Shown here piece by piece: positions 13,021 through 42,656 of a stretch of DNA of 64,000 nucleotides; the stretch's first letter is position 1; each line of letters begins with the position of its first letter. Origin of the DNA: Acarospora socialis (lineage: Eukaryota > Ascomycota > Lecanoromycetes > Acarosporales > Acarosporaceae); NCBI GenBank assembly GCA_025617375.2, contig JAMYGW020000012.1, positions 124,001-188,000 of the forward strand, given 5' to 3'. The position numbers were made by a program, and so were the translations under genes. The notes beneath the pieces are model-generated. The model worked only from the letters and a program-made list of their open reading frames with translations. It did no database searches and was not told the DNA's origin.

Positions 13021-13974
13021 GATCTTACATAGAAGCAGCATATCTGCTGCAGCAATGTTATTCACAGAAGCAGGTACTCTATAATATCTGCACATTTGTA
13101 AGCTTTAATATTTATTCTTGCTAATAGATTATTAAAGTAAGAGTATGACAATCATCAACAAGTTGAAAGATAGCTTAGCTATTTTGACTTAGAAAAAACT
13201 GAAAAAACTCTTGAAGCTGCTATCAAAGTATTATGAACAATATATTTGGTGCAGTCACATATAGACTGTTAGTAAGCATAGTAAATTTTATTTATTTATT
13301 CTTCATTCTATGCATACAGCTATAAAAGCTATGACAGTTAATAAACATACAGTTATTATAAAGTAAGATGTCAGAACATTACAAACAATACTAACAGAAC
13401 ATTACAGACAATACTTTAGTGCAGTCATGACATTGATGATTAGTAAGCATAGTTAAGCAACAATTTATAAGTATGAAGCTTCTCTGCACATAAGACTCTT
13501 TAGTAGAGTGACTGTTGAGCTTTTTCAAAGTTGGTTTTTTGCTTATTTCACATGACTTGTTAGTCATGCTTTGCCATAGTGACAAATACATCTCAATTTC
13601 TTCAAAAATTTGAACAAATTTTTGATCATGTGCATTGAGCTTGAAAGCAATCTGTTTTTTGTGATTTTTTTTTTTTTTTTTTTGTTTTGTAGAGAATTGT
13701 GAGACCTTTCAAATAATGTAAAAATTACCAAAATTACCCTAGAAACAAAGAAGATTACCATAAATATAATCTGAGTTAGATCAGACCTGAATAGTTGTTT
13801 GATGAGCTAGGTCAAGTTCTAAAATCTGAGCTCAGTCAAACTCAATGATCACTTTGCTCTTCAGAGATTAGTTTTGATATCAATAAATATATATTGTATT
13901 GCTTTATCATTGAATAGTTTGTGCATTGTTATATTTCATACTGTTATAAATCTATTTTAGTAATTTATTCTTAA
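13020..13974. other. decayed repeat DNA, unclassified
   Basis: AT-rich sequence without a supported gene. It contains imperfect direct repeats with the shared word agtaagcatagt (13271-13282 and 13442-13453, both following a gtgcagtca element) and a T tract at 13668-13682. A fragment of LINE A lies inside at 13287-13351. Confidence 0.4.
13287..13351 (-). mobile_element. LINE A, 3'-terminal fragment
   Basis: The (TTTA)n tract followed by ttcattctatgcatacagc and ctataaaagctatgacagtt matches the reverse complement of the 3' end of the full-length LINE A copy (28010-28079). Only the last 65 bases are present, as expected of extreme 5' truncation on insertion. Confidence 0.7.
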
Positions 13975-13975
13975 C

Positions 13976-14988
13976 AATAAATATTATTATTATTATTATT
14001 CTTACACTGAACTAACTATGCTAAGCAGAACTTCTCTTCAGTTTATATCTTAGAAAATCTTACAAGAATGAAAATTTAAGCTCATAATGTTTCTTGTATG
14101 AAAGTAGATTAAATGCAAAAGTTGAGTGAATAAAATATAAGATGAATGATCTCACTTTTAATTATAGAGAACATTGATCATAAACTGAAACTGACTTAAA
14201 TGACTGTTACACACAATTCATTTAACAGTCTCATAAATCAGCTCTTTAATAAACAAAAATTGTATAAAATTTCTTTTTCTTTCTTTCTGAATAATAAGCA
14301 GCTGTAAGTTCTTTCTGATTTTACATATCAGCAATATATGTTGTGAAGTCTTTGCTCTCTTATTACATAAGTAGTTGATAGAGAAAATTTTGAAAATCTT
14401 GATTTTATGAAGAAAGTAATTGTAGTTAATACATTCTGTATGAAACTGAATTAATTTTGAACTTTCAGTTTTTCTCAGTTTCTGATGAAGTTAAAGAACT
14501 CTTTTAAAAAATAATTTAATAATTTAATTTCATCTTCTATTCTTCTTTTTCTGATTAGTGTCATATTATCTCTGAATTTATGCATTTTGTATAATCTTCT
14601 TCAAGCTGATTTTCTTCATTAGTTTTACTAAGAAATGAGTGACTGCTTTCATCATCATAAATCAACAGACTTTCTACTTAATTCTTTTTTTAATGAGACT
14701 GCAGATCTTGTTTTTCATTTCTGCAAAGACTGTATTTTTTATATAAGTGAGATAGACTTGTATTCTATCATCTAAATATAGATCAAGAAAAAAAATGTAG
14801 ATTTTAATTTTCAAAGTACTGATTGAAGTAGTCTGATAAGTGTCAGCAATTATACAAAGATATTTGAACTGAGTGATTTTAATTGCACTGATAATCTTCT
14901 TTATGTGATGATTCTTGATAGATGTGTGTCAAACATATACTTTATAAGTCATTGCTGATTAAATAACTGATGTGTAGATCTGTCAAGA
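13976..14988 (-). mobile_element. LINE B, 3' fragment (minus-strand copy)
   Basis: The (ATT)n run at 13982-14000 followed by cttacactgaactaactatg is the reverse complement of the 3' end of the LINE B copy at 40540-40585 (gtttagtgtaagaat then (TAA)n). The match continues colinearly to about 14988, corresponding to about 39590 in the other copy, so this holds the last 1 kb: the end of the RT-RNase region and the 3' untranslated part. It is strongly hypermutated. The 5' side abuts the tail of a LINE A fragment. Confidence 0.65.
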
Positions 14989-14991
14989 TTG

Positions 14992-15170
14992 TTTATTTAT
15001 TTATTTATTCTTCATACATCACATGCAACTATAGTAGTTATGGTGACTTAGTAGAACATTTGTTGAATATGCAGATTTATTCTGACAATTCATATGTATA
15101 ATATATGAATTACAGATTTATTCTAATAATTCTAATTGCTTATTGATCACTTCTGAACAGTCAATCTGAT
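14992..15170 (-). mobile_element. LINE A, decayed 3' fragment
   Basis: A (TTTA)n tract at 14993-15010 followed by ttcatacatcacatgcaact and ending in tgatcacttctgaacagtca matches the minus strand of the LINE A 3' untranslated region, with more divergence than the other copies. About 180 bp remain. Confidence 0.55.
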
Positions 15171-15430
15171 TGTGGGTCTCAGTGGTCAGTAGTTAAGGAA
15201 ATTTAGGGTTTGATGTCTAAATAATAGGTAAATGATTGTGTATATAGTGTCTTTTATAGACAACTAAGATCTGTAGAATTTTTCATCACTTGTTCCCCTT
15301 ATACAACTGAATGACTTGGTGATTGATTTGGTGGGTGGTGTGGGATTTGAACTCATGATCTTTGAAATTAAGCAATATACTAGTGGGGTCACTACTTCTC
15401 TAGTTTTTTGCTTAATTTCTTAGGTCATTC
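15171..15430 (-). repeat. short interspersed repeat with a tRNA-like B box (possible SINE or MITE remnant)
   Basis: This 260-bp stretch keeps many GG and CC dinucleotides (for example ggtgggtggtgtggg at 15329-15343) although its surroundings have almost none; CG is absent. On the minus strand GTTCAAATC at 15352-15344 matches the RNA polymerase III B box and lies downstream of an ACTAGTATATTG segment. The actagtgggg word resembles the ends of the MITE pair at 43.4-44.1 kb (actagtgggcc), so it may be a relative of those instead. A true tRNA cloverleaf is not evident. Confidence 0.35.
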
Positions 15431-16099
15431 AAGCAGTATACATCTAAACTGCTGTGTATACATGTCAGCAATTTAACTCAAATAGAAAGTTACAGTTTTG
15501 AGACAGATCAGATTAAATGATGACAATTGTAAAATTGCTTTGTGACAATTTAACTGTACATCATTCAAAAAGAATGGTGTAACTGATCTGATTGATGAAT
15601 TTAGTCATTATAGTCAACAAAATCTCAATATTCTGACAACTGCCAATAACAACTATCTTATGAGACAAATTCAGAGTGATATCTTCAGATACTAGTATGT
15701 TCATATTCACTAGTATTTTGATCTTGAGATCTTCAACAATGTGAACTTCATGCAACACAATCACAGTACAATCATCTTTTTCAGATAAATAGATATCTAT
15801 CTTGACATATTTGTCAAAATTGTGTATCATGACATCTAATTCTCATACTGATATAGACAACAGTATATGATGAGTTGTCATATTAAATGTCTGTTCTTTA
15901 AGAAACTGTCTGATGATAAGAATCATTGTGCAGTCAGTGTTAAGACAAATAAACTAATTGATAGTTGCATCAGAAGATAGTCTTGCTTTCATTATTATAT
16001 AGTGTTATTCTTAAAATTCATAGTTGTCTGAACTGAATCAGTTCATTATGATGAATTTAACATAGATAGATGCAGAGAATATCAACAGTGTCAACATCA

Positions 16100-16705: not shown

Positions 16706-17044
16706 CAGCTCAGAAACATCAATTTGCCATATACAGCAAAGATGCTGTTTACTATCAAGGAAGGAATCAAAGCTACTTTGCTGTTTTTGAAGAAAACCAA
16801 AGTAGCTACTAGAAAATGGTTATTAGAAGAAGTTGAGAGTGAAGATGAGATTTAGAAAAGAAAAAAGATATTGATTGACAATCAGCATCAGATTGACTGA
16901 ACAGAAGTGATCAAAAAGCATTCAGATTGATTATTCACATGTTTAAGATTTTGAGTTTTGTTTTGTGTCTACATCTTTCACTATATGTCTATTAACTGTC
17001 ATAGCTTTTATAGCTGCATGCATAGAATGAAGAATAAATAAAAA
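16706..17044 (+). mobile_element. LINE A, 5'-truncated copy with 13-bp target-site duplication
   Basis: Matches the last 0.34 kb of LINE A (end of ORF2 and 3' untranslated region, ending gaagaataaataaa). It is flanked by perfect direct repeats TATGTGTTTCATA at 16693-16705 and 17045-17057, the signature of target-primed reverse transcription. It keeps GG and CC words and is much less mutated than the DNA on either side, so it is a recent insertion. Confidence 0.88.
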
Positions 17045-18830: not shown

Positions 18831-20820
18831 TATTTATTTATTTATTTATTCTTCATTCTATGCATGCAGCTATAAAAGCTATGGCAGTTAATAGACATAT
18901 AGTGAAAGATGTAGACACAAAACAAAACTCAAAATCTTGAACATGTGAATAATCAATCTGAATGCTTTTTGATCACTTCTGTTCAGTCAATCTGATGCTG
19001 ATTGTCAATCAATATCTTTTTTCTTTTCTAAATCTCATCTTCACTCTCAACTTCTTCTAATAACCATTTTCTAGTAGCTACTTTGGTTTTCTTCAAAAAC
19101 AGCAAAGTAGCTTTGATTCCTTCCTTGATAGTAAACAGCACCTTTGCTGTATATGGCAAATTGATGTTTCTGAGCTGATTTTTCAGCTCAGTTTGCTCCT
19201 TTTTGTTATATTGACAGACTGTCAACAAATGCTCTGGGGTTTGATCTTTGTTGCATGCACCATTGCATTTCTTGCTGTTATAGTCTGGTAATCTATGCAG
19301 GTATGCTTTGAAATAGTCATGATCTAGTTTCATTTGTGTAAAAGTAGCAAATGAAAGTCTGTCTGCACTTTTCAGATCTTCTTTGATGTGAAAACTAGGT
19401 GTTTGATCAAACTGAGCATAGTATCTTTCTTGGGTTGTCTTTTCCCAGTGGGTGGTCCAGTTTTCCAGTGCTTTGGCCTTGATTTTGTGTTTGATATAGC
19501 TAATAGATGTAAATCTATCAGTATCTGGTGAAATTGACTGCTTTGCACCTGATTTTGCAGCTTTATCTGCTATTTCATTGTCTTTAATGTTCTCATGTTC
19601 AGAAATCCAATGAATATGAGGTGTAACTTCATAATCTATGAGTTTTTGAAGAGTTTCTTGACATTTAATAGCTAGATGCTGTTCAGATCCTTGATTTGTG
19701 GTTTGAATTCTTTGTATAGCTGCTTGATTGTCTGAAAAGATCCAAACATCTTTGATTCTTTGATATTTCATGATTTCTTTGAGACTTAACTTCAAAGACT
19801 GTGAGATTCCAAACAATTCAGCATCATAGACTTCCATGGTAGTTTCTAGATTTCAAGATTGTTGATGTATAATGTCTTTATACATGTAGCAAAGACCTGC
19901 ACCTAGATTTTCATCTAGTTTTGACCCATCTGTGTATAGAATAGCATTTCTTGCTCTAGTTTCTTTAGAAACAAGTGTTTCTAATTTCTTTAGATGTTTC
20001 AAAGTAGCTAGTTTCTTGTCAGATTTGCTGATTTGAATGTCTATGTTTGGTGAAACACTCCAAGATGCACAGCATAACTCATTTTGAGTTGAAACCTCCA
20101 AATTTAGTGTTTCTGGTAGATATTTGCAAATGCTATATAGCACTTTAATCAACTGAGTTGGGTGTTTCTTCTTAATGAGAGAGTTTGGATGTTGATTCCA
20201 GTCAAGATAATGATTTTCATCAATATCACATCCAGTTCCAAGTCCTGGTGAGTAGGTGTATGGAGTTCTTTGTCTAATTGAATGATTTTCTGACAAAGTA
20301 GCTATTCTTAAAGCATATAGCTCTGTTTTTTGATCAAGTCTAAATCTAGATGGTAATATAGCTGATTCTAGCTCCATAGCAGCTGATGGTGAAGACCTAA
20401 ATGCACCTAGAATTTTTCTAGTTGCTGAATTTTGAAGTTTTTGAAACAGCTTTTCAAAATTCTTTTGTTGTTTCCACCATACTGAGCTTCCATAGTCACT
20501 TATAGATGTGATGCAGGCTGTGTACAGCTGTTTTCCAGCTGATGTTGATAAACCCCATTCAGAATTCATCAGTCTATGCAGTAAATGCAATGTTCTAGTT
20601 GCAGAAGCTATTTTCTTTTGCACATGTGTCTTAAAAGACATTTTAGTGTCAAACCAAACACCTAGCCAGCGTACAACTTTAGAAGGATGTATAACAGTGT
20701 TATTTGGTAGTTTTACTGTTGATATAGCTTGATTTCCTTTCTGAAAATGAATGAGTTCTGACTTGCTGTCATCAAATATAACTGCATTTTCTTCAGCCCA
20801 TTGAAATGCAGTTTTTGTGA
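18831..20820 (-). mobile_element. LINE A copy 1, 5'-truncated, 2.0 kb
   Basis: Minus-strand copy carrying the C-terminal 40% of ORF2, 3' untranslated region and (AAAT)n tail. Reading frames at 20641-19853 and 19837-19028 cover the end of the reverse transcriptase, the RNase H region (YTDGSK, EVYDAELFGI, SDNQAAIQ, HENIKDNEIADKAAK) and a terminal CCHC motif (CNGACNKDQTPEHLLTVC). A single in-frame TGA at about 19850-19852 divides the frames. At five other Trp positions where the full-length copy has TGA this copy keeps TGG. Flanked by a 14-bp target-site duplication at 18817-18830 and 20821-20834. Confidence 0.92.
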
Positions 20821-20834
20821 ACTGAAAGAAAATT
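20821..20834. repeat. target-site duplication, right copy (LINE A copy 1)
   Basis: ACTGAAAGAAAATT, identical to 18817-18830. Confidence 0.88.
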
Positions 20835-21254: not shown

Positions 21255-22381
21255 TTTGGACATCAACATCACCACAACCAACACATCTTCAAAAATTCTG
21301 AATCAACAGTTTTCTTCACCTTGATCTCTTCTAAAATTCATACTATTACTGCTTTTTGATATCTTTATTGCTCACAAAGTTGTTGGACTGTTTAGTTGTA
21401 CCCCTTAGTATCTAGTTTTTGAAGTTCGCAAATTTTTGCTTAATTTTCCTAGCTTGCTTGGCAGAATTTCTGCGCACCAAGCATCACCAGATACCTCAAC
21501 TAAGCCTCACTCACACCAAAACACCAAAAACACCAAAACAACCAAGAAAACACCAAAAACACCACTTTTACGCCAACTACACAGCAATTCCAGCCTATAC
21601 ACACCAAGCTACATCAATTCACGCATCATACAACATACCTACATAGCTCTACCATCAAAACAAGCTATTTGATCAACAAAATCGACTACTTTTCAGCTAT
21701 TTTCGCCCAAAAACCAGTGTTTCAGGTCGAATTTCTAAGCATTACAGACTGAATTACACCAAATCGCTCAATTCCAGCAACTGCACGCAGTTTCCGCAAA
21801 AACTAGCCGCAAAATAGCCATTTCTTGACGAATTTAGCTGGAATTTGAGCATTTCTTCTGTCAATTGATTAGCGTTGTGCATGCAGAAAGAACCTACCAG
21901 TGAAGACATACTCTACACTAGAAGCATCTCACAAAGACCTAGTGAAGAGTATAAGCAGGTAGCTACTTTCTAGCCCTATCTGCTGGTAAAAGCTCAGACT
22001 GGCAAACAATGTTGTCTGAGTAGTTGGGATATAAATACAAGGCTTCACGTGAAAATCTTGCCCTAGACGCATCTGCCCCAAGATCTAGTGGTTGAGTGAC
22101 TTATAGTATAGTCTTGCTTATAGTAGAGCTGGTAAAAGCCTATTGTAGAGTTTATCTACTCTAGGTGAATTGGAATATTAAGCAACATCTGAATTAGACA
22201 ATTGGGTACAACCTATTCTAGATGAAATAAGGATCCAAAGCTTCTATAATCTAGAACCTCAGGAAAATCTAGTTTTTACCTCCAAAAACTAGATAATTAC
22301 TGCTAGACATAGACCTTCTGGACCTGGATTTGGATAGGATTTTGGATTTGGACAGGATGGACCCCAAAAACACCTCATATC
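21255..22381 (+). promoter_or_regulatory. 5' leader (probable internal promoter) of LINE A
   Basis: About 1.1 kb of non-coding sequence before ORF1. The part 21425-22090 contains about twenty CG dinucleotides (cgcaccaag, cgccaac, cgcatcat, ttcgccc, agccgcaa), far more than the rest of the element. A CA-rich tract (caccaaaacaccaaaaacac) lies at 21514-21560. LINEs of this group carry an internal promoter in this position, but no specific element can be named. Confidence 0.55.
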
Positions 22382-23971
22382 ATGACTTTTGCACTGGATT
22401 CCAGCAACTTCATGCAAGATTTCAACCTAGAAAACCCAAAAACACCTACAAAACAACAAAAATCACCAAAAACAGCACTTCCACAACTCTTTATGAGTTC
22501 ACCAGACCTGTTGGGATCACAAATCACCATGAAACCTTCTCAAAAGACTATTCTAAAGTCTAAAAAGAGAAGAGTCATTGCCAGTCCAGTGCTAGAAGCT
22601 ATTTCTTCTGATGAAGAACCAAATCAGCATGAAACTCATCATGCAAACTGCACAAATCTACACCCAAAAAGTCAAAATGGTGACAAACTACTTCAACAAG
22701 CCAGAAATTACCTCAAGCAAGCTATTCAGCAATTCACAAACCCCATAGTTCAACAAGAACTAGAAACTAGCATCAAGACACTGGATCAAGCAAGACAAAA
22801 TGCAAATCTAGACTCACTCAAACAGTCAGATGAAGCATTTCATCAGAAACTAGATGTTCAACAACAACTAGACAGCTTCAAAGATGAAGTCAACATCAAA
22901 CTAGACAAAATTCTTCACACAATGTCTAAGACAAAGTCAGAAACCACAGAGAAACCAGCATTTGTCTTTCAGACAAACAAAACAAACCCTATCAACTTTG
23001 TACAGACAAACAAAACCAGCTTTGGACAGTCAACATCAACAAAAACAGTGAAATCAGCAACATATGCATCAATTGCAAGCAGCAAAGATCAAAATGCTCA
23101 AAACTCATGGACAACTGTTCAAAAAAAAGCACCAAAGTCAAAAGTAGTGGATAAACCCATTACTTTCAGAGAAAGACGTCTAGTTATAAAGTCAAAAACA
23201 CCCACAACTACTATCAATGCCATAGACATGCACAACAAAATCAACAACGCACTTAAAACAGCAAAAATAGACAATTTGCTGGTTTCCACAGTTGCTATTT
23301 CACAATTCAAAGCTAGTATAGTGCTCACAACCAGTGAAGACACAGCAGAAGACTTGCTAAAACATCAACAAATCTGAAATTCATCATCTGAATTCATAGA
23401 AATCAAAAAGGATGAAAAGTGGTACAAAATAGTAGCACATGGAATTCCCACAGCTATTTTCAACAGCAAAGAAGACATGCAACTAGTCAAAGATGAAGTA
23501 GAAACCTTCAACAAAGATATCAAACTAGCTATTTTACCACACTGACTTACTTCAGAAGAAGCCAGACAGGAAAAACAGCATGCATCTATTGTTTTGACAG
23601 TCAAATCAGAACAAGAAGCTCAAAAAGCACTCAGAAACAGACTGATAATTGCTGGAACATCAGTTAAAACTGCAGTCTACAACACTTGCAAACCAACAGA
23701 TCAATGCAGAAAGTGTCAAAAGTTTGGACATACTCAAAAAGTATGTAAAAATCAAGACACATGTCAATTCTGTGCGGGAAACCACAATACTAGAGAACAT
23801 GGCTGTTTTCTTTGTCCCACACAGTCAAAAGGAACCACTTGCGCACATATAGTCTATAAATGCAGCAATTGTGATGAGAAACATCAAGCAAATAGTGCAG
23901 AATGCAGTGTTTTCAAAGCACTACAGCCTATTTCTTCAACAGCAGATCCACTATCTATGAAAATGTCATGA
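22382..23971 (+). pseudogene. LINE A ORF1 (nucleic-acid-binding, zinc knuckle protein)
   Basis: Reading frame of 530 codons starting MTFALDSSNFMQDF, interrupted by TGA at 23375-23377 and 23543-23545. The N-terminal half is Gln/Lys-rich; the C-terminal part has zinc knuckles CRKCQKFGHTQKVC (CX2CX4HX4C) and CQFCAGNHNTREHGC, then a further Cys/His pair (CSNCDEKHQANSAEC). It corresponds to the RNA-binding ORF1 protein of Tad/I elements. The stop codon at 23969-23971 overlaps the ORF2 start. Confidence 0.85.
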
Positions 23972-28079: not shown

Positions 28080-28095
28080 ATGCTGAATATTTAAT
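28080..28095. repeat. target-site duplication, right copy (full-length LINE A)
   Basis: ATGCTGAATATTTAAT, identical to 21239-21254. Confidence 0.9.
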
Positions 28096-29456
28096 GAAAT
28101 AAATGATAAATCAATGATCATTGTTGTCATGATGAAGTCATTGATGTTATTAAATTGTTATATGCACAATGTGTCAAGTGAAAGAAGAATGATATTTTCT
28201 AAGCTATGAAATTAGCTAGATATAGATGAGAAGTAAGTTTCATAGCAAGATGAGTCATAATGTAATGTCAGTGACAGTGAAATAAGAAAGACATGCTCAC
28301 TGAAAAGTACATTGAATAAACTTGTAACAGTTGTCATAATAAAGTCATTGATGCTATCAAATTGTTATATGCACAATGTGTGAAGTGAAAGAAGAATAAT
28401 ATTTTCTAAACTATGAAATCAACTAGATATATAGATAAAAGATAAGCTTCATAGTAAGATGAGTCATATATCATCAGCAATTTAATCAGTAACATCATCA
28501 GCAACTTCATCAGCAACTCTGTCAACAATCTTTAGTCACTAGTTATAACAAAAGAACTATGAGTAACAACAGACAAATCATTGAAGACTTCATTAATGAA
28601 AAGAAAAACATCATTCAATGTCATTAAAACAGATAAAACTCTAAGCTTTTTATTTTCTCTATTTCACTTGCTGTCTTATTAGTATCTTCAATTTAACAAG
28701 ATCATCAACATTTTTGAAAAAAAAAACAGATTGTTATAAATAGAACATAGTCTGTCTCACTATTTTGATCTTAATCTTTGAACATAATTCATCAAGTTAC
28801 TTGCAAATCTCACTGTCATCATGAATTTGATGAACTAATTACTAAATATGAAAGACATCTCTATAGATATATAACAAGAATTTTTCATAGATAGATTTTT
28901 AGCAATTACATCTTTCATTCACTCATATAATGATTTTAATACAAAATAACTAATTTTTTTTTGTAAATTGATTTGTTACATTTATTTTTGCTTTTTCTTT
29001 TAAATTTCTATGAATATCATTTGACTTTATTTTTACTGTTTATATATACACAACATATATCATTGTAACAAGCTGTTCAACTCAGACTGATATGCATTTC
29101 AGATATATCTTTTGCTTTTGTTTTAACTGTTATATTAGTGATATTTTTTTATTTATTTGAGATCTGTTACATTTTTAAATAAGATGTTCAGATTTTTTAT
29201 AGTTGTAATATATTTATATATTATTTTATAATGTCTTAAACTCATTAAATCACTCTGTCTAATGTTCAGACTCTGTATATTTAATTTTTATAACTTTTAA
29301 CAGTACTTTTTAATTATATTAAAATTCATAGAATCACTTCTTCAGTATGCTTGAATAGACTTTCTTTTTCATTTATATTTAGATGATATTTAATATTTTT
29401 TGTGCTTCATTTGATACTCTTATTAATGACTATCAATATTAATAATTAAATTAATC
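28096..29456. other. hypermutated AT-rich DNA with one direct repeat
   Basis: No gene seen. Contains a direct repeat of about 135 bp (28126-28260 and 28332-28467), then a low-complexity catcagcaa tract (28484-28530). The end of this stretch may be the leader of LINE B or a continuation of the older Gypsy-like element. Confidence 0.4.
28126..28467. repeat. two direct repeats of ~135 bp, 205-bp period
   Basis: Units 28126-28260 and 28332-28467 share aagtcattgatg, aaattgttatatgcacaatg, gaagaat, atattttcta and agatgagtcata in order; differences are mostly transitions. Possibly a duplicated leader or terminal repeat remnant of a transposable element. Confidence 0.6.
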
Positions 29457-32400
29457 ATGCTCTGTAGATTGTTTAATTGTTTTATTTTAATTATTTTGTT
29501 CAAAGATCAGCAACAGTTTTATTTATGTATTTCAATCAAAAAAAGTCAACATCAACAAGTTAATCACTTCAATAAGACTCACAAAAAAAATCATACAATA
29601 ATAAAAGATGATGAAGAACCAGAAGAAACATGTTATAGTGAAATCTCATTAAAGCAAAAAGTCTATCTTTTTCATCACTCTCAAAGTTTCTCAAAGACAA
29701 TCAACACTCTAAACTGTTTTATATGAATCAGTAACTGTTTAATTAAGATGAAAAAAATTTGAAAAATGATCAGAACTGTGATGCAAAAAAAAAAGAGTGA
29801 CATTTTGAACACTGATTTTCAGAAGATTAAGAAGCAAATTAAGAATTTTACAAACATTATACAAGATCTCATCAAAGTTCTCACATTTTCACAAACATAC
29901 TCAGCAGCAGCAATCAGTTTCAAGAATCTTGAAATAAAAGTTTTATCAGTGCTTCAGAAAAAATATCAAGAAATAATGATCAAAATAAAAGTAAAAACAA
30001 AAATACAAAAAACAAAAACAGAATAGAACATCATATAAAAGATACAAAAAGAGATAGAAATCTCAGAAATAATGATGACTGCAAGATGTCTGTTCAGTAA
30101 TGATGTGATTTTTATCTTTGAGAAAAAAAAGAACAAAATGATGTGAAAAAAGAAAGAAAAAGTTGTATAAATCTTTGAATTCAATATCAGAATCAAGCAG
30201 CAAGAGTATATTATTATGATTCATGAAATTCAAATCATCTTTATAAATAACAAAAATCAAGCTAAAACAATAGAGATTCTTTACATGCAAAATTTACAAC
30301 TTAAAAAATAAGTGAAGATTCTATGAGTAGAATGATTTAAGAAGACAATTGTATGAAAATATTGCTTTAAATCATTTCACATTAAGATAGTAAAAGCTGA
30401 ACAGACAAATTATTTTCTGCAAAATGATCTTCTTTTTAATTTTAAGTTTTATGATTGCAAAATCTTCTCTAAAAACTGCATTGTCATTTAATGCTTTAAA
30501 TGTCAGCAGTACAAGAATTACACAGTTAAGCACTACAAAAATCATACAATATGACTTCTGTGCAGTTCTGAGTTATATAATTGAGAATTACATTAAAAAA
30601 AGAATTCTCTGAAGATCTGATGTGCATTATGCAGAAAGAAAAGCAAAAATTATTTTGTATGAGTCAGATATTTTTCAGAAAGAGTGAAGAAAGTAAAAAA
30701 AGTAAAAAAAATTTATCTCATATGATTTACACACTTTCAGATTTCAATTAAAGATCTTTTTCTCAGAATTTCACTGAATACTTTATTCAAACATTCTCTC
30801 ATAAAGATATCAGTTTCACTTTTTAATTCTTAAGCTCAGTCACAATAATCAGTGACAATGATTTTCTTTCAGTTCTGAAAAGAAAAAGAAGAAAATTATT
30901 TAAAACACTGACAGTTAATTATACAAATTTTACAATTACAGAAATACTCTCTCAGTCATAAGTTAATGAATAAGCTGTTTATTCTGCAATATAATGTGTA
31001 GAAAAACAAGAATAAAATGATGATTTCTCTTTTAACTGACAAAACAATCTGATTATACAATATTTTGATAATTCAGAAACTTTGACAAAATTCTTTTACA
31101 TTAACATTTTACAGCTTTAAGATCACTTTTTTTATCTTACAATATAATTTAATTTCATGACAAAATTACTTTCTGATTAACAAAAGACTTAATTTCAGTA
31201 TTTGATTAGTGAATTTTTTTATTTTCAATTTATGTATATTTTGTCTTTGTATGAACAGCAAAACTCTTTAAATATACAATATTTACTTGCAGTCTTTAGA
31301 AAGTCACACAAATACTAATTATTTCTTTTTTATTTCTTTTCTGTCAACACTTGTACAAAGAAAGAATGAATACATAGTTTTAAAGAACTTCAATCTACAT
31401 TATTCACTGTGAAGTAAATTCTTCAATTTAAACATTTACAACATAAAAGAAATTCTTGATGAAACAGTCACATCATACAATCTTTTTTTATTGATTACAT
31501 CAAAAATTTCTACTTAACATATTCAGAAAATCTTTAACACAATAGATTTAATCTTTGTCAGTTGAATTTTTGCAGATTAGCTGAAAGAATGCTTTATTAA
31601 AAAGAATATAAATTATGATTCAGATCATCTTTCAATCTCAGTGATTTTTAATTTTAAGATTGTATAAATCACTTAAAGCAAGATGAAATGCTGAAAGAAG
31701 ATGAATTAAGAAATTATACTGACTGAAACTCAACATCTTCAGACAAATTAAAATTTGTTAACAAAAACTGAGATTGTACAATACACAGAGTATCTTGTCA
31801 ACTTCATTGAAATATTAATTAATAACTCAGTTTCTATGCACAAGTTCTTGAACTAAGAAGAAGTTTGATGAACAGATGCAATTAATGAGATAGTCAGACA
31901 AGAAAGAAGAATAAGATAATAAGTAAGAATGATTTATATAAAAAAAGCATGAAAATTAATCAAGATGAAAGACAAGATTAAAAGAAATTTATTGCAAAAA
32001 TAAAAATCATATACTTCTGCAATGTGATCAGTGAGATAACAGAGAAAAATGAATTTTTAATTTTAATTAAGATAAAAAAAGAAGATTTAAATTCTACAAT
32101 AACAATTTTCTTAATTTGTACAACACATGAAGAAATTCACATTCTGAATAAAAAAGCTGAGATCTTTAAGAGAAAATTTTATTTTAAGATGACAGTCAAT
32201 CTTCAGAATATTTTGAATATCAAAGTGCTTTGATTTTTACAGAAAAACAGATTTATTAATTTAAATATCTTTATTCAATATATATTCATCTTTGACTCAA
32301 TTAATGTTGATGAGATTTCTACAATTCTTTATACAAAAGTGTCTCACAATGCTTTAGAATCAGACAGTATCTCTTATTGCTTTCTTAAAGTAATGAAATT

Positions 32401-32857
32401 TAAGTTTACTCAAACAATAATCAATCTTATCAATGCAAACTAAAAGCTAAACTTTCTTTCTGAGAAATACAAGAGAGCTTGTACAATAATGTCATGTAAG
32501 TCAGAAAAGTAATTCTACAAAGAAGTTAAATTATAAAAATCAATTATTCTGTTGAATATGATGAGAAAGATTATGAAAACTCTGTTAATTATATGAATTA
32601 AGTAAATCACAAAAGACAACAATTTTCTTTTCAAAAGTTAAATGAAATACAGAATAGAATGATTTACAGAAACTGCACTGAATCTGTTGATAAGTCAGAT
32701 TTGTATAATTTGAAACAGTAAAAAACATGTTGTCACTTTTCTGTCAATAAACATAACAAAGATTTTTAACACAATAAATTCAACTCAGCTTCTGAACAAC
32801 TTGCAGAAGAAACAGATGTTTTTGTTATGATTATACTTAGAGAAATAAGATACAGAC
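29457..32857 (+). mobile_element. LINE B, left part (ORF1, endonuclease, start of RT)
   Basis: A second I/Tad-type LINE, heavily hypermutated. Frames at 29457-29726 and 29766-30300 resemble a LINE ORF1; the knuckle region is near 30540-30680. An AP-endonuclease-like stretch covers about 30960-31680, and reverse-transcriptase blocks follow at about 32290-32770 (including IILLNMMRKIMKT-like and FLSINITKIFNTIN-like segments, cognates of the RPIALLN and FLDIKGAFD blocks). There are dozens of stops and the reading frame is only traceable in short pieces. The element is cut at 32857 by a Gypsy insertion and resumes at 39012. Confidence 0.7.
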
Positions 32858-33159
32858 TGACTTATATGTGAAAAGAGCATTTGACAAATTGTCTGTCAAG
32901 TATAAATCACATGATGACTCAACAACTCAAAAAATCAAGCAGTTAACTTAATGAATCAATCAATCAAGCATTTAACTCAACACAGAAGAACATTGAGTTC
33001 ATATTATATAGAAAAATTGATTTTCTTATAAAATTAATTATATTTAACTTAAATAACAATTTAAAAATAAAGATCAGAATCATTTCAGATCAGTTTTTAT
33101 ATCAATAAGTATAAATTTTTAGTTTTTATACAAGAGAAATCTTTCATGAGAACATTACA
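32858..33159 (+). repeat. 5' LTR of the Gypsy fossil
   Basis: 302 bp, begins TGACTTATATGTG and ends GAACATTACA; partner of 38710-39011. No clear target-site duplication could be read at the outer edges. Confidence 0.8.
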
Positions 33160-36100
33160 CTTTAAACACTCTTACAATATAAGAAGTACAATGTCTGACA
33201 CTTAAAAAAATGTCTCAATCTTATTCTTAAATTAAGTTCAAGCAAATTCATCTTTATCATCTACTTCAGATAGAATGATGACACAATTAGTGATGATATC
33301 AGTTTAAACTATACAATTATCTTTGAGTGCATCTAAAATACAAATATCAGATATTTTTAATAAAGAATGAAAAAAACCATGAGTTTTTGTGATTAAGCTT
33401 GATCTGTATATTGAATTCAATTAATTAAAGCTTCAGACTGATCAAGAGAAAATATTATTTGCAGTAATTTATTTAATGAATACAGTTTTCAATTGAATTG
33501 ACTTCAAGCTGCATGAATTTCTAAAAAAGAAGTACAAAGAACACAATAATAATAAAAAATTTATGTTTAACAACTTCAGCAAGTTCAAAAATGAACTGAA
33601 ATGAATTTTCAAAATAATTGATGAAGAAAGAGCAACAAAGAAATAAGTTTACATTTTGTAACAGAGTGAATCAGTAACAATATATGTCACAGAGTTTTAG
33701 CAGTTAACAATACTTATTAAATAAAACAACAAAGCACTCATCTATCAGTACTATTGTGAATTAAAAAAGTTCATTAAAGACAAAATAGTTTAAACAAAAT
33801 GATCAGACAATCTTCAAGAGATAATTAATTTGAGTATTAACATTAATAGTCATCAATAAAAGTGTCAGATGAAGCACAAAAAATATTAAATGTTATTTAT
33901 GATAAAAGATCAAGAAGAAAGTTTCTGATCATGAATGAAAAGATATATTTTATTAATACAATATAGAAAGACAAATTCTATAAATCTCAATACAATTAAA
34001 AAGTGTTGTCAGAAGTCAAAAAAAACTAAATGAATAAAGTCTGAATGTTAAACAGAGCAATTTAATAAGTCTTAAATGACATCATGAAATGAAACACAAA
34101 TATATTATAACTGCAGAAAACTCAAACATCTTGTCTGAAAGTGCAACAAATCTCAAATGAATAGAAAAGATATTACAGCAATAATGATTAAAACAAAAGC
34201 AAAAAAACTAAACATAATGCATGACACTCTGAGCTGAATAGTCTGTTATGATGATTTGTGTTAAATACACATAAGTAACAAAAATAAAGCTGAATGATAT
34301 TCACAGAAGTCAAAGAAAAAAGATAAAGATGAATGCAACAAATCAATTTACAAAAAAAATTAAACTATTCTTATCAAGAAAGAAGATCTTAATACTGAGA
34401 TCAAAGAAATCAATATTTGAGAAATTCAGATAAAAAAAAACTATAGTAATAACATTTAACAAGTACTGAATTTGAATGCAGATTAAAAAGAAATCAATAA
34501 ATAAAAAGTCAATATAAAACTGAAGACAACATATCAACATTCAGAAAATCAACACAGAGTATTGAGAGAAAAAAAGCTTCAGTTTAAAAAGTTAGAACTT
34601 AAATAAAAGATATAAGTCAGAAAATAAAAAACACAATATAAGAACACAAAAAAACAGAAGACATATAATCAGCTAAAAGAACTGATGATAATTGTTAAAG
34701 ACAAATGTTTTAACAGTAACAATGCAATATTGTTCAGATCTCTTGTGTGAAAAATAAAAAGTTACAAAATTAAAATATACTTATTCAAAGAATATATCAT
34801 ACAGAATAGAGAAAGATGAATTTTCAGTGAAGAATATATGTCACTTGAATTCTTGCAAAAAGTAAGAGTTTTTGAGAGTCAGTTGCAAATAAAATACAAT
34901 TAATATAAATTTTAACTACACTCAGAAAAATGCATTGAGCAGTACAGTTTAAAATATATGAATTTTATGATCAAAAGAAAACTCAGATAATTTCAAGAAC
35001 TTTAAAGATGAGTTGAACAATTAAATAAATCAAAAAATAAAAAGCTCTCTCAACAAAACTAAAAAACAAAAAGTTAGCAGCAGTTCAAAAAAACAACAAT
35101 GATCATCAAATATAAACTCAAATTGAGATTAACAAATATCAGATTAATGCATTAATGAATTTTGAAGTGAATAGTAACATTATGAATTACAGAATCATTA
35201 AAATGCTGAAATTAGTGATACAGTGAGTGCACTGTTCATTCAACATACAAATGATCAATGAAGTCACAGAAAGAATTGAAGAGAAAGTTTATGTGAAAGT
35301 TTTAATTCTTGAAAATTCACAAAAAATAATGTTCAACATTATAGAATCAATTGAATACAACACAATATTAAAGATGTCTTGATTACACAAAAGAAATCTG
35401 AAGATTAACTGAATAACAAAAAAAATATGTGCAGTGAAGAATACATATGAATTCTTTAAACAATCAGAAATGAATTTATTAGAACATAAGTTATGAAATT
35501 ACAAGATACTGTTATTGAATGAAAAGCAATTTAAGTGAATATCACTATACTCAATGAGCAAAAATCAACTCAAGAAAGTTAAAACTTATCTTGATAAGAA
35601 TCTCAAGAAAGAATTCATAAAATCATTAAAATCATCAACAGAATATTCAATTCTGTTTGTACTCAAGAAGAATGACAAAAAATAATTATATGTCAACTAT
35701 AAATAACTCAACAAAATAATTCATCAAGACAGTTATTTTCTACTGTTAATAGAAGAGTTGCAAAATCAGTTAGAAAAGATTAAGTAATTTATGAGCTTAA
35801 ATCTAAGAAGATCTACTATTAAGTTAAAATGAAAGAAAATAAAAAATGAAAAACAGCATTCTGAATGCAATACAGATATTATAAATATATTATTATGCTG
35901 TTTAAACTGAAAAACACTTTTGTCATTTTTCAGAGATTGATTAACAATATATTGAGAGAATATCTCAATGATTTTGTAATCACATATCTGAATAATATTC
36001 TAATATATTCAGAGAATCTTGAAGAATATTAAGAGCATGTGCACAAAATATTGACAAAACTCAACAAAAGAGTCTTATATGTGAAAAAGTCAAAAAGCAA

Positions 36101-38709
36101 ATTCAAGATCAAGAAAATTGAGTTTTTAAACTATGTGATTTGATCTGAACAGATTGAAAAGAATTTAAAAAAGATAAAAGTAATCAGAAATTAATCAACA
36201 TCAAAACAGATTAAAAAAGTACAGATTTTTCTGAGATTAATAAATTATTACTGAAAGTTTGTATTTGAATATGCAAAAATTGTAAAATCATTAACACATT
36301 TAACATACAAAAGTAAAGAATGACATTGAAATCAAGAACAAGAAAATGCATTTCATACATTAAAGAAAAGTCTTAATGAAACAGTACATTTAAGAATATT
36401 CAATTCAGTATACAAAAAGATACTGAAGATCAATACTTCAGATTTTGTAGTAGAAGTATGTCTATATTAGATTGAAGATGAACAATGAAAATTCATAATA
36501 TATTAATTTAGAAAATTATCAGAACTCAAGAAAAGATATAAGATTTATGACAAGAAACTTCTTGTAATAGTGAAAGCACTACAAAACTGAAGATCTTATC
36601 TTATAAAAACAAATAAGTCAATTCAAATCTATATAGATCATAAGAATCTGAGAAACTTCACAACAATTAAATAACTTAATTAATGATAGATTCATTGAGC
36701 AGAACAGTTGACAGATTATGAATTTTAAATTCATTATAAGAAGAGTAATAAGAATAATAAAGTGAATGTTTTAAGTAGATAATCTGATCATGAAGATATG
36801 CAGACAATATACATTGAAATTCTTAACAAAGATAACAATAAAATTTTCACAAAGAGTTTAACAGCAATGCACAAGATAAAGTAAGCTTTTTTAACAAATA
36901 AAAAACTCATTAAAATATATCATCACAACAGAGTTGAAGAACATCTAGAAGTTAAGCACACTGAGAATTTAGTGCAAAGAAGACACAACATTAATAATTT
37001 TAGAAATTGAATCATCAGAATGATTGCTGTATGCAATTTATGCTAAAGAAATAAAATTAACTGAGATAAATAATATGATAAAGTAACACAACTAAATACA
37101 TTAAATGCATCATGAAAGTCAGTTATTATGAACTTCATTATAAAATTATCATCATTAAAAAATTCAGCATGAAAGATAAAATTCAACAGTATATTAATCA
37201 TAGTAAACAGATTAATTAAGTACACAATGTTCATTTTATTCAAAGAAATTACAACAGCATTAATATTGATGTACATTATACTACAAGAATTAATTAACAA
37301 TTATAAACTATTAAAAGAATTTATCATCAACAGAGACAAACTGTTTACAAACAAATTTTAAAAAACACTCACAGCAGAACTCAGAATAAAATATAAAATG
37401 TTGATAACATATTATTTATAAACAAATGAACAGAGTAAATAAATGAATCAGATAGTGAAAACATATTTAAAACATTATATTAACAAGAATCAGAATGACT
37501 GAATATAGCTGTTGTCAACAGTACAGTTTATATACAACAATACAAAGAACAAAATCACAAGAAAAATGTCTTTCTATACAAACTATGACTACAACTCAGA
37601 GATATGATGAGATTCACAAAGATATGAATTATAAAGTCAAAAAGTAATTTTGAATATTGCTCAGTTAAAAAAACTGCATCAAGATTTAACAAAACAGATC
37701 AGACAGCAGATAAAATAAATGATAAAGACAAAATTATTTGAAGAAAAAAAGAAAATATATTTGAAAATAAACAAAATAAAAACTAAAAAAAAAAGTAAGA
37801 AGCTGAAGAACAAGAGCATTGAATTATTCAAGATTATATGAAATATTAAGAAATTAAGTTATGAGTTAAATTTACTCAAAGAAATGAGAATACACTCAAT
37901 ATTTCATGTATTCATGCTACAGCACTGCAATCAGTTCATATTACTTTAAGTCATCAAAACATTTGTTAAACTTAACAAAAAATACAAAGTTAAAAACATT
38001 CTAGAAAAAAGAATGATTAAAGAAAAAGTTCACTATCTCTCAAAATAAAAAGAATATAATATTTCAGAAAACACATAAGAATTAAAGAAAAATCTTAAGA
38101 ACTGTGTAAGAACACTTTAATATTTTGAGAAGAGAAGATAAGAAAATTAAATTGTTAAAATTCATTTAACATAACATCAAAGTACTGAAACAGAATCTCA
38201 ATAAACAGATTCTTTATTATAATTTCATTATTAAACAATTTCTGCAGAAGACAGAAAGTCTTTTTTTTATATAATTTTGAGTTTGTCACAATGTTTTACA
38301 AAGACAAATGAGCTTAACAGCAACATAAGTCTGCTCAGTAAAAAGACAAGATTGTTTAAACTCTGCAGCAAGATATTTGATTTCAGTTTTTTTCAGATCT
38401 TATTGAGAATCTTTTACAATATATTGACACAGAAACAATCACAATGAGTGTATTCAGCACATTTTTTATAAAAATTCATCACAATACACAAACACTGATT
38501 ATACAAGCAGTAATGACAGAATATCATTATAGAATGACTGTGAACAGCAATTTTCTTTACAACACAAAGTTAGTTATCAGACAAATGATGAGACATGATT
38601 ACAGATGAAAAAAATTCTTATATACTCTTGCTTATATAAATCTAAAGAATTAGCATCTAAAAGAAAAAGAATGATGTTACAATTATATTCAGAAAAATAA
38701 AACATGAAT

Positions 38710-39011
38710 TGATTTATATGTGAAAAGAGCATTTAACAGATTGTCTATTAAGTATAAGTCACATAACAACTTAATGACTCAAGAAATCAAGCAGTCAACT
38801 CAATAAGTCAATCAGTTAAACATTCAACTCAACACAGAAGAGCATCAAGTTCATATTATATAGAAGAATTAATTTTCTTATGAAATTGATCATGTTCAAC
38901 TTAAATAACAATCTAAAAATAAAGATCAAAACTGTTTCAGATCAGCTTTTATATTAATAAGCACAAACTTTTAGTTCTTATATGAGAGAAATCTTCTGTG
39001 AAAACATTACA
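38710..39011 (+). repeat. 3' LTR of the Gypsy fossil
   Basis: 302 bp, begins TGATTTATATGTG and ends AAACATTACA; colinear with the 5' LTR along its whole length. Confidence 0.8.
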
Positions 39012-40585
39012 GTCTTATTGAATTGTATAATAGATTCAGAGCTTTCTTCACAATCAAATTATCTTACTGATTACATAAAAACAAAAGACAAGTTGCTTTT
39101 CTGTGAAGACTGAAGTTTCATAAAATATCTTTTTTTCATCTATTCTCTTTTTATTCTACAATGCAGATTTACTGAAGTGATGTAATTGATTAAAAGAGAG
39201 AATTTTGACAATTGACTTCACTGATGATATCAACATTCTTTTGTACAAACTATTTATTGAAATTAACTGCATTAAACTGAAAAGAATTCATAGAGAATGT
39301 GAAAACTGAATCACACAACATGAAGTTAAATTTATCTTTCATAAATATAAAATAATTCACTTCTTCAGAGTCAGAATTAGATTCAATATGCAGACAGTTA
39401 TATGAATTTAAAATAATGAATTAATTTCTTTCTCAAGTATGAGAATCTTAGAAATTTGATTTGACTCTAAGCTTAAATGAATTACTCATGTCAAGATTCT
39501 TCAAAACAAAATAATCAAACAGACAGAAGTGTTAATTAGAATAGTAGTATTTATCTGAAAAACTTCTTTCATATAATTTTAAAAGATCTACACAACAGTT
39601 ATTTAATTAACAATGACTTATGAAGTATATATCTGATATATATCTGTCAAAATCATTATATAAAGAGAATTGTCAGTGCAATTAAAATCACTCAATTCAA
39701 ATATCTTTGTATAATTGTCAGCACTTACTGAACTACTTTAATCAGCACTCTGAAAATTAAGATCTACATTTTTTCTCTTGATTTATATTTAAATAATAGA
39801 GTGCAAATTTATACTGTTCATACAAAGAGCACAGTTTTTACAGAAATGAAAAACAAAATCTGCAGTCTCATCAGAAAAAAAATCAAGCAGAAAGTCTGTC
39901 AATTTATGATAACTATAATAGTCATTCATTTCTCAGTGAAACTGATGAAGAAGATCAACTTAAAGAAGATTATATAAAATGTATAAATTTAAAAATAATA
40001 TAACATTAATCAGAAAGAGAAGATCAGAATATAAAATTAAGTTATTGAATTATTTTTCAAAAAAGTTCTTCAGCTTTATCAGAAACTAAGAAAGATCAAA
40101 AGTTCAGAATTGATTTAGTTTTGTATGAGATGTATTAATTATAATTACTTTTTTCACAAAATCAAAATTTCTGAAATTTTCTCTATCAACTATTTGTATA
40201 ACAAGAAAGCAGAAACTTCACAACATATATTGCTGACATGTGAAATCAGAAAAAACTTACAGCTGCTTATTATTCAGAAAGAAAGAAAAAGAGATTTTAT
40301 ATAATTTTTGTTTATTAAAGAGTTGACTCATGAAACTGTTAAATGAATTGTATATAACAGTCATTTAAGTCAGTTCTGATTTATGATCAGTGTTCTTTAT
40401 GATTAAAAGTGAGATTATTCATTTTATATCTTATTCACTCAACTTTTGCATCTAATTTACTTTCATACAAAGAACATTATGAGTTTAGATTTTCATTCTT
40501 ATAAGATTTTTTAAGATATGAACTGAAGAGAAGTTCTGCTTAGCATAGCTAGTTTAGTGTAAGAATAATAATAATAATAATAATT
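39012..40585 (+). mobile_element. LINE B, right part (rest of RT, 3' end)
   Basis: Continues LINE B after the Gypsy insertion. The block around 39150-39180 (ILFLFYNADLL) and 39222-39245 (TDDINIL, the FADD-box position) are reverse-transcriptase motifs that belong C-terminal to those left of the insertion. The 3' end is marked by (TAA)n at 40564-40585, preceded by gtttagtgtaag; the minus-strand copy at 13976-14988 has the same end. Strongly hypermutated. Confidence 0.72.
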
Positions 40586-40589
40586 ATTT

Positions 40590-41545
40590 TGTTTTTGATG
40601 ATTTTTCTCAAATTTCAATAGTACTGTGAAATGAGTAAATTGTCATTTCATCTAATGAGTATCATTAATTATTGAAACTTTGTAATGTAATTTGCTGCTG
40701 ATTCTCTCTGTTATAAAATATAAATTAATTTTTTTGTTGTTTTTTCTTTGTTGATTACTTTGAAGATTTATTTTAAATTCTTTTTGAACTTGTTGAAGTC
40801 ATTAAACATAAACTTTATATTATTGTTACATTTCTAATAACTTTTTTCTAGAAATCTGTGCAGTTTGAGATTAATTTAATTGAAGACTGCATTTATAAAA
40901 TATGTTGTTGCAAACAATGTTTTTTCTTAATTGATTGTAAACTTCACTTAATTGAATTTAACATATAAATTGAACTTAATCAAAAAACTTACAGCTTTTC
41001 TTATTCACTACTGAAGATATTTGATATCTATATTTTTAATTCACTCATAAATAGTTATATCATTTAAATTAACATCATTATCTATAATGTAATTATTCTT
41101 TCAGAAATTAATGATAGCAGTGAGTAATTTACTTGAGTCTGTTTTAAAAACAAGATAAAGATGTTTTTTTGTGTATCAGATATTGTTACATTATATTGTA
41201 AAAGTATATAAAATGTTATATTTTGATCTGAGATTTCTTGAATATTAGAATGAAGAATTTGTGCTTATTATTATAACAATATATATGATACAATAAACTC
41301 TGAATTTAACTTTTAAATGATAACTAAAGTTGAACACAATTGATTTTATAAGAAAATTAATTTTACTATATACTATAAGATCATCATGCACATTCTGTGC
41401 ATTATTACACTGTAGATTCAATAGATTTTTTAGTGAATTTATTGCTCATAAGATTTATTTTCAACTCAGTGCTCTCATTATGCTGTCACATGACTGCTGT
41501 TTAACAGTCTTTAGTGTGTGTATCTTTGATGAACTTTCAAGTTCA
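40590..41545 (-). mobile_element. second Gypsy fossil copy: LTR plus gag part, minus strand
   Basis: The reverse complement of about 40740-41050 aligns with the gag-like region of the element at 33370-33600, and about 41213-41545 aligns with the reverse complement of its LTR. This is a truncated copy in opposite orientation holding only the 5' LTR and part of gag. Broken and heavily mutated; old. Confidence 0.55.
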
Positions 41546-41593
41546 GACTTGTGAGTTTCTGTCTACTGAGATATGATTGTAACAGCAAGTAAT

Positions 41594-41744
41594 ATAATAG
41601 AATTGATTTTCTTCTGAAATCAATCATGTTCAACTTAAATAACAATTTAAGATCTAAGATCAGAATCATTTCAGATCAGCTTTTATATCAATAAGCACAA
41701 ATCTTAGTTTTAATATGAGAGAAATCTTCTGTGAGAACATTACA
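41594..41744 (+). repeat. solo LTR fragment of the Gypsy family
   Basis: Matches the right half of the 302-bp LTR (words aattgattttctt, catgttcaacttaaataac, catttcagatcagcttttat, gagaacattaca). The left half is missing. It is directly followed by a MITE half-copy. Confidence 0.7.
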
Positions 41745-41746
41745 GT

Positions 41747-41850
41747 TCTATTTATACTGCAGATATTTTGCAGTGTTTGGTTGCTATGTGTGAAAACATC
41801 ATGTTCTTTACTTATGGTTCACCCAATCACTAAAAAACAGCTTCATAGTA
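41747..41850. mobile_element. MITE family 2, half copy
   Basis: About 100 bp (tgcagatattttgcagtgtt through cactaaaaaacagc) match the reverse complement of the left half of the complete MITE at 43091-43358. Mutated relative to it, consistent with lying inside the hypermutated compartment. Confidence 0.65.
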
Positions 41851-42038
41851 CATGTGTGAGAGAATTTTAATGTCTATCTTGACAAAACTGTACTTGTTTT
41901 CACTTGTGTTATGATCTGTAATCAAAATCAGAGTAAGTGCATAAGATATCTAAACTAGTATTATACTTCTCATTGAAGCAATAGACTGTACAGCTAGCAC
42001 ATGTGAAGACTTGAGTATATACAAGTTAACTTGAAGTC
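41851..42038. other. right edge of the AT-rich compartment
   Basis: No gene seen. CG is still absent here, while GG and CC start to reappear after about 42065; CG becomes normal from about 42130. Confidence 0.45.
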
Positions 42039-42656
42039 TTATTGTCTCTTCTGTGTATCTTGACCTTCAAGGGTGCTTTTTGTCAGAGCCAAGGTCAGCT
42101 CATTTTGTGAAATTGGTGCATTACAAGCGTCTCCGTGAACTCGATCGCCATAGGTTGCAGGCTCAAGCCCGCCGTGTCCGCTCAGTGGCCTTGCGTTCTC
42201 CTTTGCCGTGAGTTGCCAAGCAAGTCCAACTGCATCCGGTCAGTGGAGAACACCGTTGCGCCGGCGCAAAATCAACATACCGTTGGCAACGTCGTCTTCC
42301 CCATCTGCGTTTTCCACAACCTGACCAACGTAACTTTGCTGCCTGCTCCTGGCCTCCGGGCTCCGCCCACTCAACATGCTTCCTCTCCGGCTGGGTAGTC
42401 TCGATCCCATCGGCGAGTATTGCGACTGATCACTCTTCCGACGAGCCCAAGCGCCGCCGAACGAGAATGCAGACAGCTTGTCCTGGTGGGATTGATTATA
42501 TGGACCCTTATACTTTGGTTTGGGCATCTCGCCAGGCTTGTAGATGTTATCCTGATCCTTTTTGGAGCTCTTGGAAGAGGTTTTGGCAAGGTCGGAGCCA
42601 TCGCTGGTTAAAGGGGAACGCCCGAAGGCTCTCTTCATCTTCTCACGGAAAGGCAT
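42039..42656 (-). CDS. conserved hypothetical basic Ser-rich protein
   Basis: Two exons on the minus strand, 42656-42281 and 42229-42039, give 188 residues. The N-terminus MPFREKMKRAFGR and the segments YKPGEMPKPKYK, KLSAFSFGGAWARRKS and QYSPMGSRLPSRRGS recall a short fungal protein family known to me only as hypothetical. The last exon ends ELTLALTKSTLEGQ and is a plausible continuation; donor GTATGT at 42280, acceptor TGCAG at 42230. The protein has no membrane segment and is probably disordered. Its terminal exon lies at the very edge of the hypermutated compartment: its last 25 codons contain no CG. An upstream ATG at 42779 is in frame but less likely. Confidence 0.6.

Follow-up and report, generated by a model that had tools for sequence, protein, structure and literature searches.

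In the present study, a window of 64,000 nucleotides from the ascomycete Acarospora socialis (NCBI GenBank assembly GCA_025617375.2, contig JAMYGW020000012.1, positions 124,001 to 188,000 of the forward strand) was analyzed, and an AT-rich repeat compartment with gene flanks on either side was characterized at positions 13030-42060 of this window (GC 28.5%). The loss of C before G or C in this compartment, and the process resembling repeat-induced point mutation (RIP) that it suggests, are the subject of this report. The open reading frames (ORFs) of the flanks match choline kinase, a membrane transporter, a protein kinase, adenosine deaminase, a fungal transcription factor domain and a pyridoxal-dependent decarboxylase, and flank GC is mostly 49-55%, dropping to approximately 0.33-0.41 in repeats at 43.0-44.0 kb. 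The edges of the compartment are sharp, within approximately 250 bases. At the left edge, at 13,000, GC falls from 0.56 to 0.31 across neighboring 250-bp windows and, in the edge stretches listed, the CG, CC and GG of the flank stop at 13,001, with three further occurrences at 13,073, 13,248 and 13,533; at the right edge, 41,823 marks the final occurrence within the compartment and is followed by one at 42,064.

Expected dinucleotide counts were taken as the means over 300 mononucleotide shuffles of the same stretch. For the whole 29 kb, 25 CG (590 expected), 237 CC (614), 194 GG (568) and 688 GC (590) were observed, corresponding to observed/expected ratios of 0.04, 0.39 and 0.34 for CG, CC and GG. 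The last two ratios are not near zero because LINE A, a long interspersed nuclear element (LINE), and a few other stretches retain CC and GG; in the 2-kb windows of 18-28 kb, which are mostly LINE A, CC and GG stand at 0.38-0.87 of expectation. The initial annotation, which had described the loss of all three dinucleotides over 29 kb, was thus right for CG, which is nearly gone throughout, whereas CC and GG are gone in the older parts only. These parts include a fully saturated block (28090-41770, 13,681 bases) with no CG, two CC and no GG, versus shuffle means of 197, 196 and 197, while GC stays common there, as had been noted (204 versus 198). A recount of 33361-33960 reproduced the earlier by-eye figures exactly (one CC, zero GG and CG, and ten GC). 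In the 2-kb windows of 28-42 kb, CA and TG are raised (approximately 1.3-1.6), as are TC and GA (approximately 1.2-1.5), and TA is not elevated (0.61-0.76). After correction for composition, CC and GG lie far below the flanks, in which the ratios are near normal (CG 0.87-0.93, CC 0.93-0.96 and GG 0.92-0.97). A low GC content, drift or an assembly artifact without any special context might be considered, as the GC of the block is only 24%; however, shuffles at this composition average approximately 590 CG, CC and GG together versus the 2 observed, with normal GC, uniform C-to-T conversion in a model still spares 27 CC/GG and 13 CG per kb, and the flanks show no such deficit, so that we give this explanation practically no credence.

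The direction and context of the changes were obtained from repeat copies. Seventeen in-window repeat pairs were listed, ten of which were tabulated for transitions and transversions and eight aligned for dinucleotide columns; the remaining listed pairs are short, overlapping or third comparisons. LINE A is present as a near full-length copy on the plus strand (21400-28081, start approximate) with ORF1, endonuclease, reverse transcriptase and RNase H, a 5'-truncated copy on the minus strand (18832-20825, 97% identical to 26089-28081) and a short 3' copy on the plus strand (16706-17042, 98-99% identical to the other two). A long terminal repeat (LTR) retrotransposon remnant occupies 32823-39011 on the plus strand; its 337-bp direct repeats (32823-33159 and 38675-39011) start with TG and end with CA, a purine tract stands just before the right LTR, and the five flanking bases are GTTTT and GTCTT. 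The usual mechanism of insertion yields two identical LTRs; the present pair is separated by 59 transitions, with neither transversions nor gaps. An old repeat on the plus strand (13976-14990) pairs with 39575-40588 on the opposite strand at 85% identity, with 145 transitions, 8 transversions and 1 gap. Two older pairs, likewise with partners on the opposite strand, join 33001-33790 with 40582-41376 (72% identical) and 28955-29499 with 33780-34359 (71% identical); these two pairs of approximately 72% are richer in transversions, with transition to transversion counts of 157:59 and 98:29. Outside the compartment, two short copies in the right flank (43420-43760 and 43770-44085, together 43420-44085) are the least mutated repeats seen, with CC partly kept and no CG common to both, and a short element lies on the minus strand at 43085-43200, with its other copy at the compartment edge (41735-41850).

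The alignment scheme tolerated transitions, dinucleotide columns were counted on both strands, and context counts were restricted to sites with an identical 3' neighbor in both copies. First, in the young LINE group, which consists of two pairs having one copy in common, the differing sites were 26/92 for CC, 13/379 for CA, 10/321 for CT and 0/2 for CG, and the main pair alone had 24 CC that differ and 61 that are kept. The resulting rate ratio of CC versus CA and CT was 10.7 (resampling interval 5.9-19.9). Changes dominated by CpA were sought in the aligned copies and not seen. In CC preceded by a base other than C and followed by A or T, the first C was changed 15 times, the second 5 times and neither 44 times; the target within CC is therefore mainly the first C, and the 3' base matters. 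Effects of the 5' base look weak beside that of the 3' base. Second, neither CC nor CG was kept in both copies within the older groups, and none differed as CC-to-TC or CG-to-TG; the 72% group had a single CC/CT column. Unambiguous differences amounted to 87/225 for CA and 89/231 for CT in the 85% group, in which the LTR pair is counted, and to 96/168 and 83/138 in the 72% group; the LTR pair also shows changes at CA (21 columns) and CT (19 columns). As these differences are equal at CA and CT, both are also targets, only slower ones, and the earlier description can be refined accordingly: CA and CT are mutated slowly and equally once CG and CC are exhausted. Third, former CG sites were marked by columns with TG in one copy and CA in the other, as expected when CG is hit on opposite strands, with AC versus GT as the control and palindromic columns halved. 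The counts (control in brackets) were 19 (1) in the 85% group, 21 (6) in the 72% group, 10 (2) in the flank pair and 8 (0) in the LTR pair. We relied on this contrast because a minimal-ancestor adjacency test was uninformative for CG (8 sites in the LTR pair versus a null of 7.7, and the other four pairs below the null), ancestral CG and CC being masked by convergent changes. In the short element at 43085-43200, small counts of changed and kept sites were 2/0 for CG, 2/3 for CC, 1/15 for CA and 3/5 for CT. Throughout, C-to-T-type changes fall on both strands and in both copies of pairs.

The coding part of LINE A provides evidence of the same context at synonymous sites. The endonuclease, reverse transcriptase and RNase H domains are recognizable, CG is nearly absent from the coding part, and ORF2 of the near full-length copy has ten in-frame stops before its end. 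Among codons ending in a pyrimidine, the third position is C in 100/152 cases before A, 46/88 before T, 13/86 before C and 3/95 before G (66, 52, 15 and 3%), whereas the corresponding values in nine host ORFs are 123/188, 82/140, 103/191 and 122/250 (65, 59, 54 and 49%), the context effect in LINE A (p about 4e-30) being far stronger than that in the hosts. On the purine side, AAG/GAG/CAG account for 84/382 and AGG/GGG for 3/73 of the codons in their A/G-ending pairs in LINE A (p about 1e-4), versus 267/469 and 83/177 in host ORFs (p 0.03). Arginine is encoded by 48 AGA, no AGG and 4 CGN codons in the LINE A segments counted, compared with 39 AGA, 41 AGG and 149 CGN in host ORFs. Moreover, all of the stops present in only one LINE copy within the shared part of ORF2 are TGG-to-TGA changes (5/5), which are of the CC type; a CpA mutator would give TAG.

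The same observations bear on an AID/APOBEC-type cytidine deaminase acting on retroelement DNA, with which C-to-T-type changes on both strands of retroelements would agree. AID/APOBEC deaminases read the 5' base, and APOBEC3G targets the second C of CC. Here the 3' base decides, 5' effects are weak next to it, mainly the first C of CC has changed, and tryptophan codons give TGA, not TAG; a deaminase of this type is therefore considered very improbable.

In the 2-kb young LINE pair, only two CG sites were detectable, and the LINE lineage therefore lost most of its CG before the copies spread. Across 22370-27882, hardly any CG or AGG stands at synonymous sites of the LINE A coding DNA, the frames of which are still recognizable; this is a possible adaptation of a mobile element to a mutator of its host. 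Upstream of ORF1, a stretch at 21420-21900, perhaps a 5' untranslated region, retains CG and CACCAAAA runs; with 11 CG in 21501-22000, the stretch upstream of ORF1 holds the most CG seen inside the compartment.

When the stretches of the window are set side by side, a graded series emerges. Flank genes have 58-65 CG and 124-129 CC/GG per kb, the flank repeats at 43,420-44,085 have 8 and 60, and the less mutated stretch at 15,160-15,440 has no CG and 75 CC/GG, mostly GG; for 15171-15430, the earlier statement that CG is absent and GG kept was borne out (CG 0, CC 3 and GG 18). LINE A has 2 CG and 41 CC/GG per kb, three other stretches of 13-19 kb have no CG and 2-6 CC/GG, and 28-42 kb has no CG and approximately no CC/GG. 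Simulations were started from a Markov ancestor of flank composition and run with C-to-T changes only until GC reached 24.3%. With relative rates for CG:CC:CA:CT of 20:20:1:1 and 20:8:1:1, respectively, the simulated values per kb were 136 and 131 for CA/TG, 107 and 109 for CT/AG, 14 and 15 for GC, 88 and 87 for AC/GT, and 127 and 124 for TC/GA, and the observed values were 131, 108, 15, 86 and 123. The sums of squares were 994 for 20:20:1:1, 1192 for 20:8:1:1, 1374 for 60:8:1:1 and 1490 for 20:4:1:1, compared with 4658 for 20:1:1:1, 4802 for the uniform model and 25536 for a Neurospora-like model. In other words, simulations favoring both CG and CC approximate the block, and CG-only, uniform and Neurospora-like simulations fit worse. 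For two CC to survive in the block, CC would have to change at about 14-20 times the rate of CA and CT, a range that overlaps the interval of 5.9-19.9 from the young copies. Thus, the proposal of the initial annotation that C is converted before C or G in a RIP-like manner is supported by aligned copies, synonymous sites and simulation, and its order of CpG, then CpC, then the rest is agreed upon by copies of different age, the position changed within CC, synonymous codon sites and simulation.

Herein, we propose that a RIP-like mutator of the methyltransferase type, preferring C before G or C, has acted on this compartment, which is the best reading of the data and one that we hold to be probable. 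At the level of sequence, the aligned copies and window counts demonstrate an excess of transitions, a 3' context, an order of loss and a confinement to the compartment and nearby repeats, and the C-to-T direction is strongly implied because only that direction reproduces the spectrum. According to this proposal, a genome-defense mutator would repeatedly act on both strands of mobile elements and turn C into T, its choice of target being read from the base 3' of the C, with G strongly preferred and then C. CpG would rank above CpC, and CpC would be favored over CpA and CpT by a factor of roughly 10 to 20, the latter two being about equal. Over repeated rounds, CG would be stripped first and CC/GG next, CA and CT would be slowly eroded, and GC would fall from about 50% to 24%. 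The C-to-T-type transitions on both strands with few other changes are those of RIP in the broad sense, and the loss of CG with raised CA and TG is that of CG-type RIP; CG is not the only target, since CC and GG together number 2 in the saturated block versus about 393 expected and a CG-only simulation (20:1:1:1) leaves 31 CC/GG per kb. A 3'-neighbor code on both strands favors a C5-methyltransferase-type enzyme, and the agent may be such a protein (RID/Masc1, DIM-2 or another Dnmt1 relative) favoring G or C at +1, which presumably acts on repeats and in the sexual cycle. None of the 10 flank ORFs covered, out of 13 of 200 amino acids or more, matched a methyltransferase.

Several observations weigh against this proposal. 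In the flank repeat pair, CC 5/13, CA 7/32 and CT 9/34 differ, a weak contrast, with 23 transversions; in this pair the CG step of the order is clear (CG kept in one copy at five sites, in both at none and discordant at ten), but the CC step is not. In host ORFs, too, C at third positions is slightly rarer before G or C (225/441) than before A or T (205/328; p 0.0016). The simulation is low on AA/TT (about 280 versus 310 per kb) and high on TA and AT. No strand clustering of changes was found in seven copy pairs by a strand-run test, in which the share of shuffles having as few or fewer runs was 0.27-0.99; no strand bias of a single round is therefore apparent, and the result is compatible with many rounds on top of one another as well as with a mitotic or passive process. 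Finally, 4,859 of the 13,971 bases of 28090-42060 are repeated inside the window, and the portion unrepeated in the window is equally stripped (1 CC in 8,891 bases). The last two observations would also agree with passive decay, in which heterochromatin is methylated at CG and less at CC, and 5-methylcytosine deaminates spontaneously with no active mutator. The early loss of CG fits the decay of methylated DNA, and the graded series fits a slow process. However, CA and CT have changed in the LTR pair too, and its 59 transitions are accompanied by no transversion, so that ordinary substitution hardly had time to act, and the transition excesses of this pair (59:0) and of the 85% pair (145:8) favor a fast mutator over slow decay. 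Moreover, the equal decay of CA and CT seen here differs from the ranking of Dim2 methylation in Zymoseptoria tritici, for which the accessible part of PMC8016269 gives the order CG, CA, CC and almost none at CT, with mutation at CA. Passive decay is therefore unlikely, although it deserves serious attention.

A further alternative is that two mutators or stages were involved, namely a CG-specific one, as predicted for Uncinocarpus, and later a CC-preferring enzyme. The flank repeats, which lost most CG with CC only partly changed, and LINE A, in which CG is near zero and the loss of CC is moderate, are consistent with such a succession. Nevertheless, one enzyme with graded rates explains the same series, and in the window scan no stretch was noticed that had lost its CC but retained CG; two mutators are thus rather improbable. 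Returning to the single RIP-like mutator, the combination of a near-inverted RIP-type target code with a LINE lineage that kept coding by purging CG and GG from synonymous sites is put forward tentatively, as somewhat short of an even chance.

Other features of the window were also recorded. Within the saturated DNA, a direct repeat of approximately 139 bp (88% identical, 207 bp from start to start) lies at 28123-28468. For the saturated block, 8 of its 13 listed short open frames were compared with Pfam, with no match or only matches below the curated cut-offs, and no element family could be named from them. At 15330-15360, GGGATTTGAACTC resembles a tRNA B box with CG changed to TG, possibly indicating a tRNA-derived short interspersed nuclear element. 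At 13287-13353 and 14996-15062, a 67-bp 3' end of LINE A and a 63% match to it have a common TTTATTTATTTATTCTTCAT start, perhaps from a second, related element having the same tail. In the flanks, a match to the H/ACA small nucleolar RNA snR44 in Rfam was found at 1911-2059 on the minus strand (39.5 bits, gathering score 33), and a His/Gly-rich ORF of 438 amino acids with recurring YEAEKHHH-like motifs, without a Pfam match at E 0.01, is located at 45272-46588. Scans of viral contigs with the LINE segment 24745-25659, the adenosine deaminase and a 22-base repeat end revealed no confirmed relative.

The proposed target code can be compared with known systems. In mobile elements, classical Neurospora RIP acts on both strands, changing C to T, and leaves AT-rich blocks. 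The CG-directed RIP of Uncinocarpus reesii is said to go back to a primary paper by Zemach from 2010. The comparisons that follow draw on those parts of the cited papers that were available. The strands and the AT-rich blocks of Neurospora RIP are shared here, whereas the N. crassa ranking is CpA>CpT>CpG>CpC (PMC5496416), and that in the present compartment is CpG>CpC>>CpT~CpA instead. For 28090-42060, the Neurospora-type indices are 0.77 for TpA/ApT, 1.50 for (CpA+TpG)/(ApC+GpT) and -0.74 for the composite, versus cut-offs of >1.15, <=0.75 and composite >0 for such CpA-type indices in a survey of Ascomycota (PMC7882544); CpA-based RIP indices thus read the block as RIP-free. In Trichoderma reesei, CpA is about equal to CpG and CpC is least preferred (PMC5496416), so that CG is among the top contexts as here, but CpC is last there and second here. 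In U. reesii, RIP at CG has been predicted (PMC4165359), a CG target in an ascomycete as in the present case; a CC target goes unmentioned in the available part of that paper, and CG as the only strong target is our reading of it. The CpG-type hypermutation of Microbotryum shares the preference for CG in transposons, with a TCG trinucleotide and no CC arm in the portion of the source available. In Rhizoctonia solani AG8, the mean spacing of changes is 214 bp for CpC, 370 bp for CpG, 422 bp for CpA and 491 bp for CpT (PMC4014442), and the numerous CpC changes, as here, count against a claim that CpC change is unheard of; that fungus differs in being a basidiomycete, the changes are heterozygous SNPs (single-nucleotide polymorphisms) between nuclei in genes and repeats alike, and its authors describe a CpG bias. 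The extreme RIP of the lichen fungus Cladonia rangiformis has sharp edges and a GC far below that of genes, as here, although the accessible part of the report gives no dinucleotide context (PMC12542154), and CpA, CpT and CpG signatures have been described across ten fungal genomes (PMC4352252). A literature search revealed no paper joining "CpG and CpC" or "CpC to TpC" to fungal RIP, and a CC preference is not claimed here to be unpublished. The earlier suggestion of a possibly undescribed context therefore needs narrowing: CG-directed RIP in an ascomycete has already been reported, and the suggestion could extend only to the CC arm and the near-reversed ranking.

To our knowledge, the basis on which RIP enzymes choose their target base is unresolved. 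A species with CpC second and CpA among the last contexts offers a natural contrast to the two rankings that place CpC last, as given in the part of PMC5496416 available, and the basis of this specificity would become testable through comparison or exchange of the enzymes. Moreover, surveys based on CpA indices can record a fungus as RIP-free despite saturated repeats, as the composite value obtained here illustrates. The mutation context of this block is near the reverse of the textbook mutation of fungal repeats, and the standard tests would miss the block.

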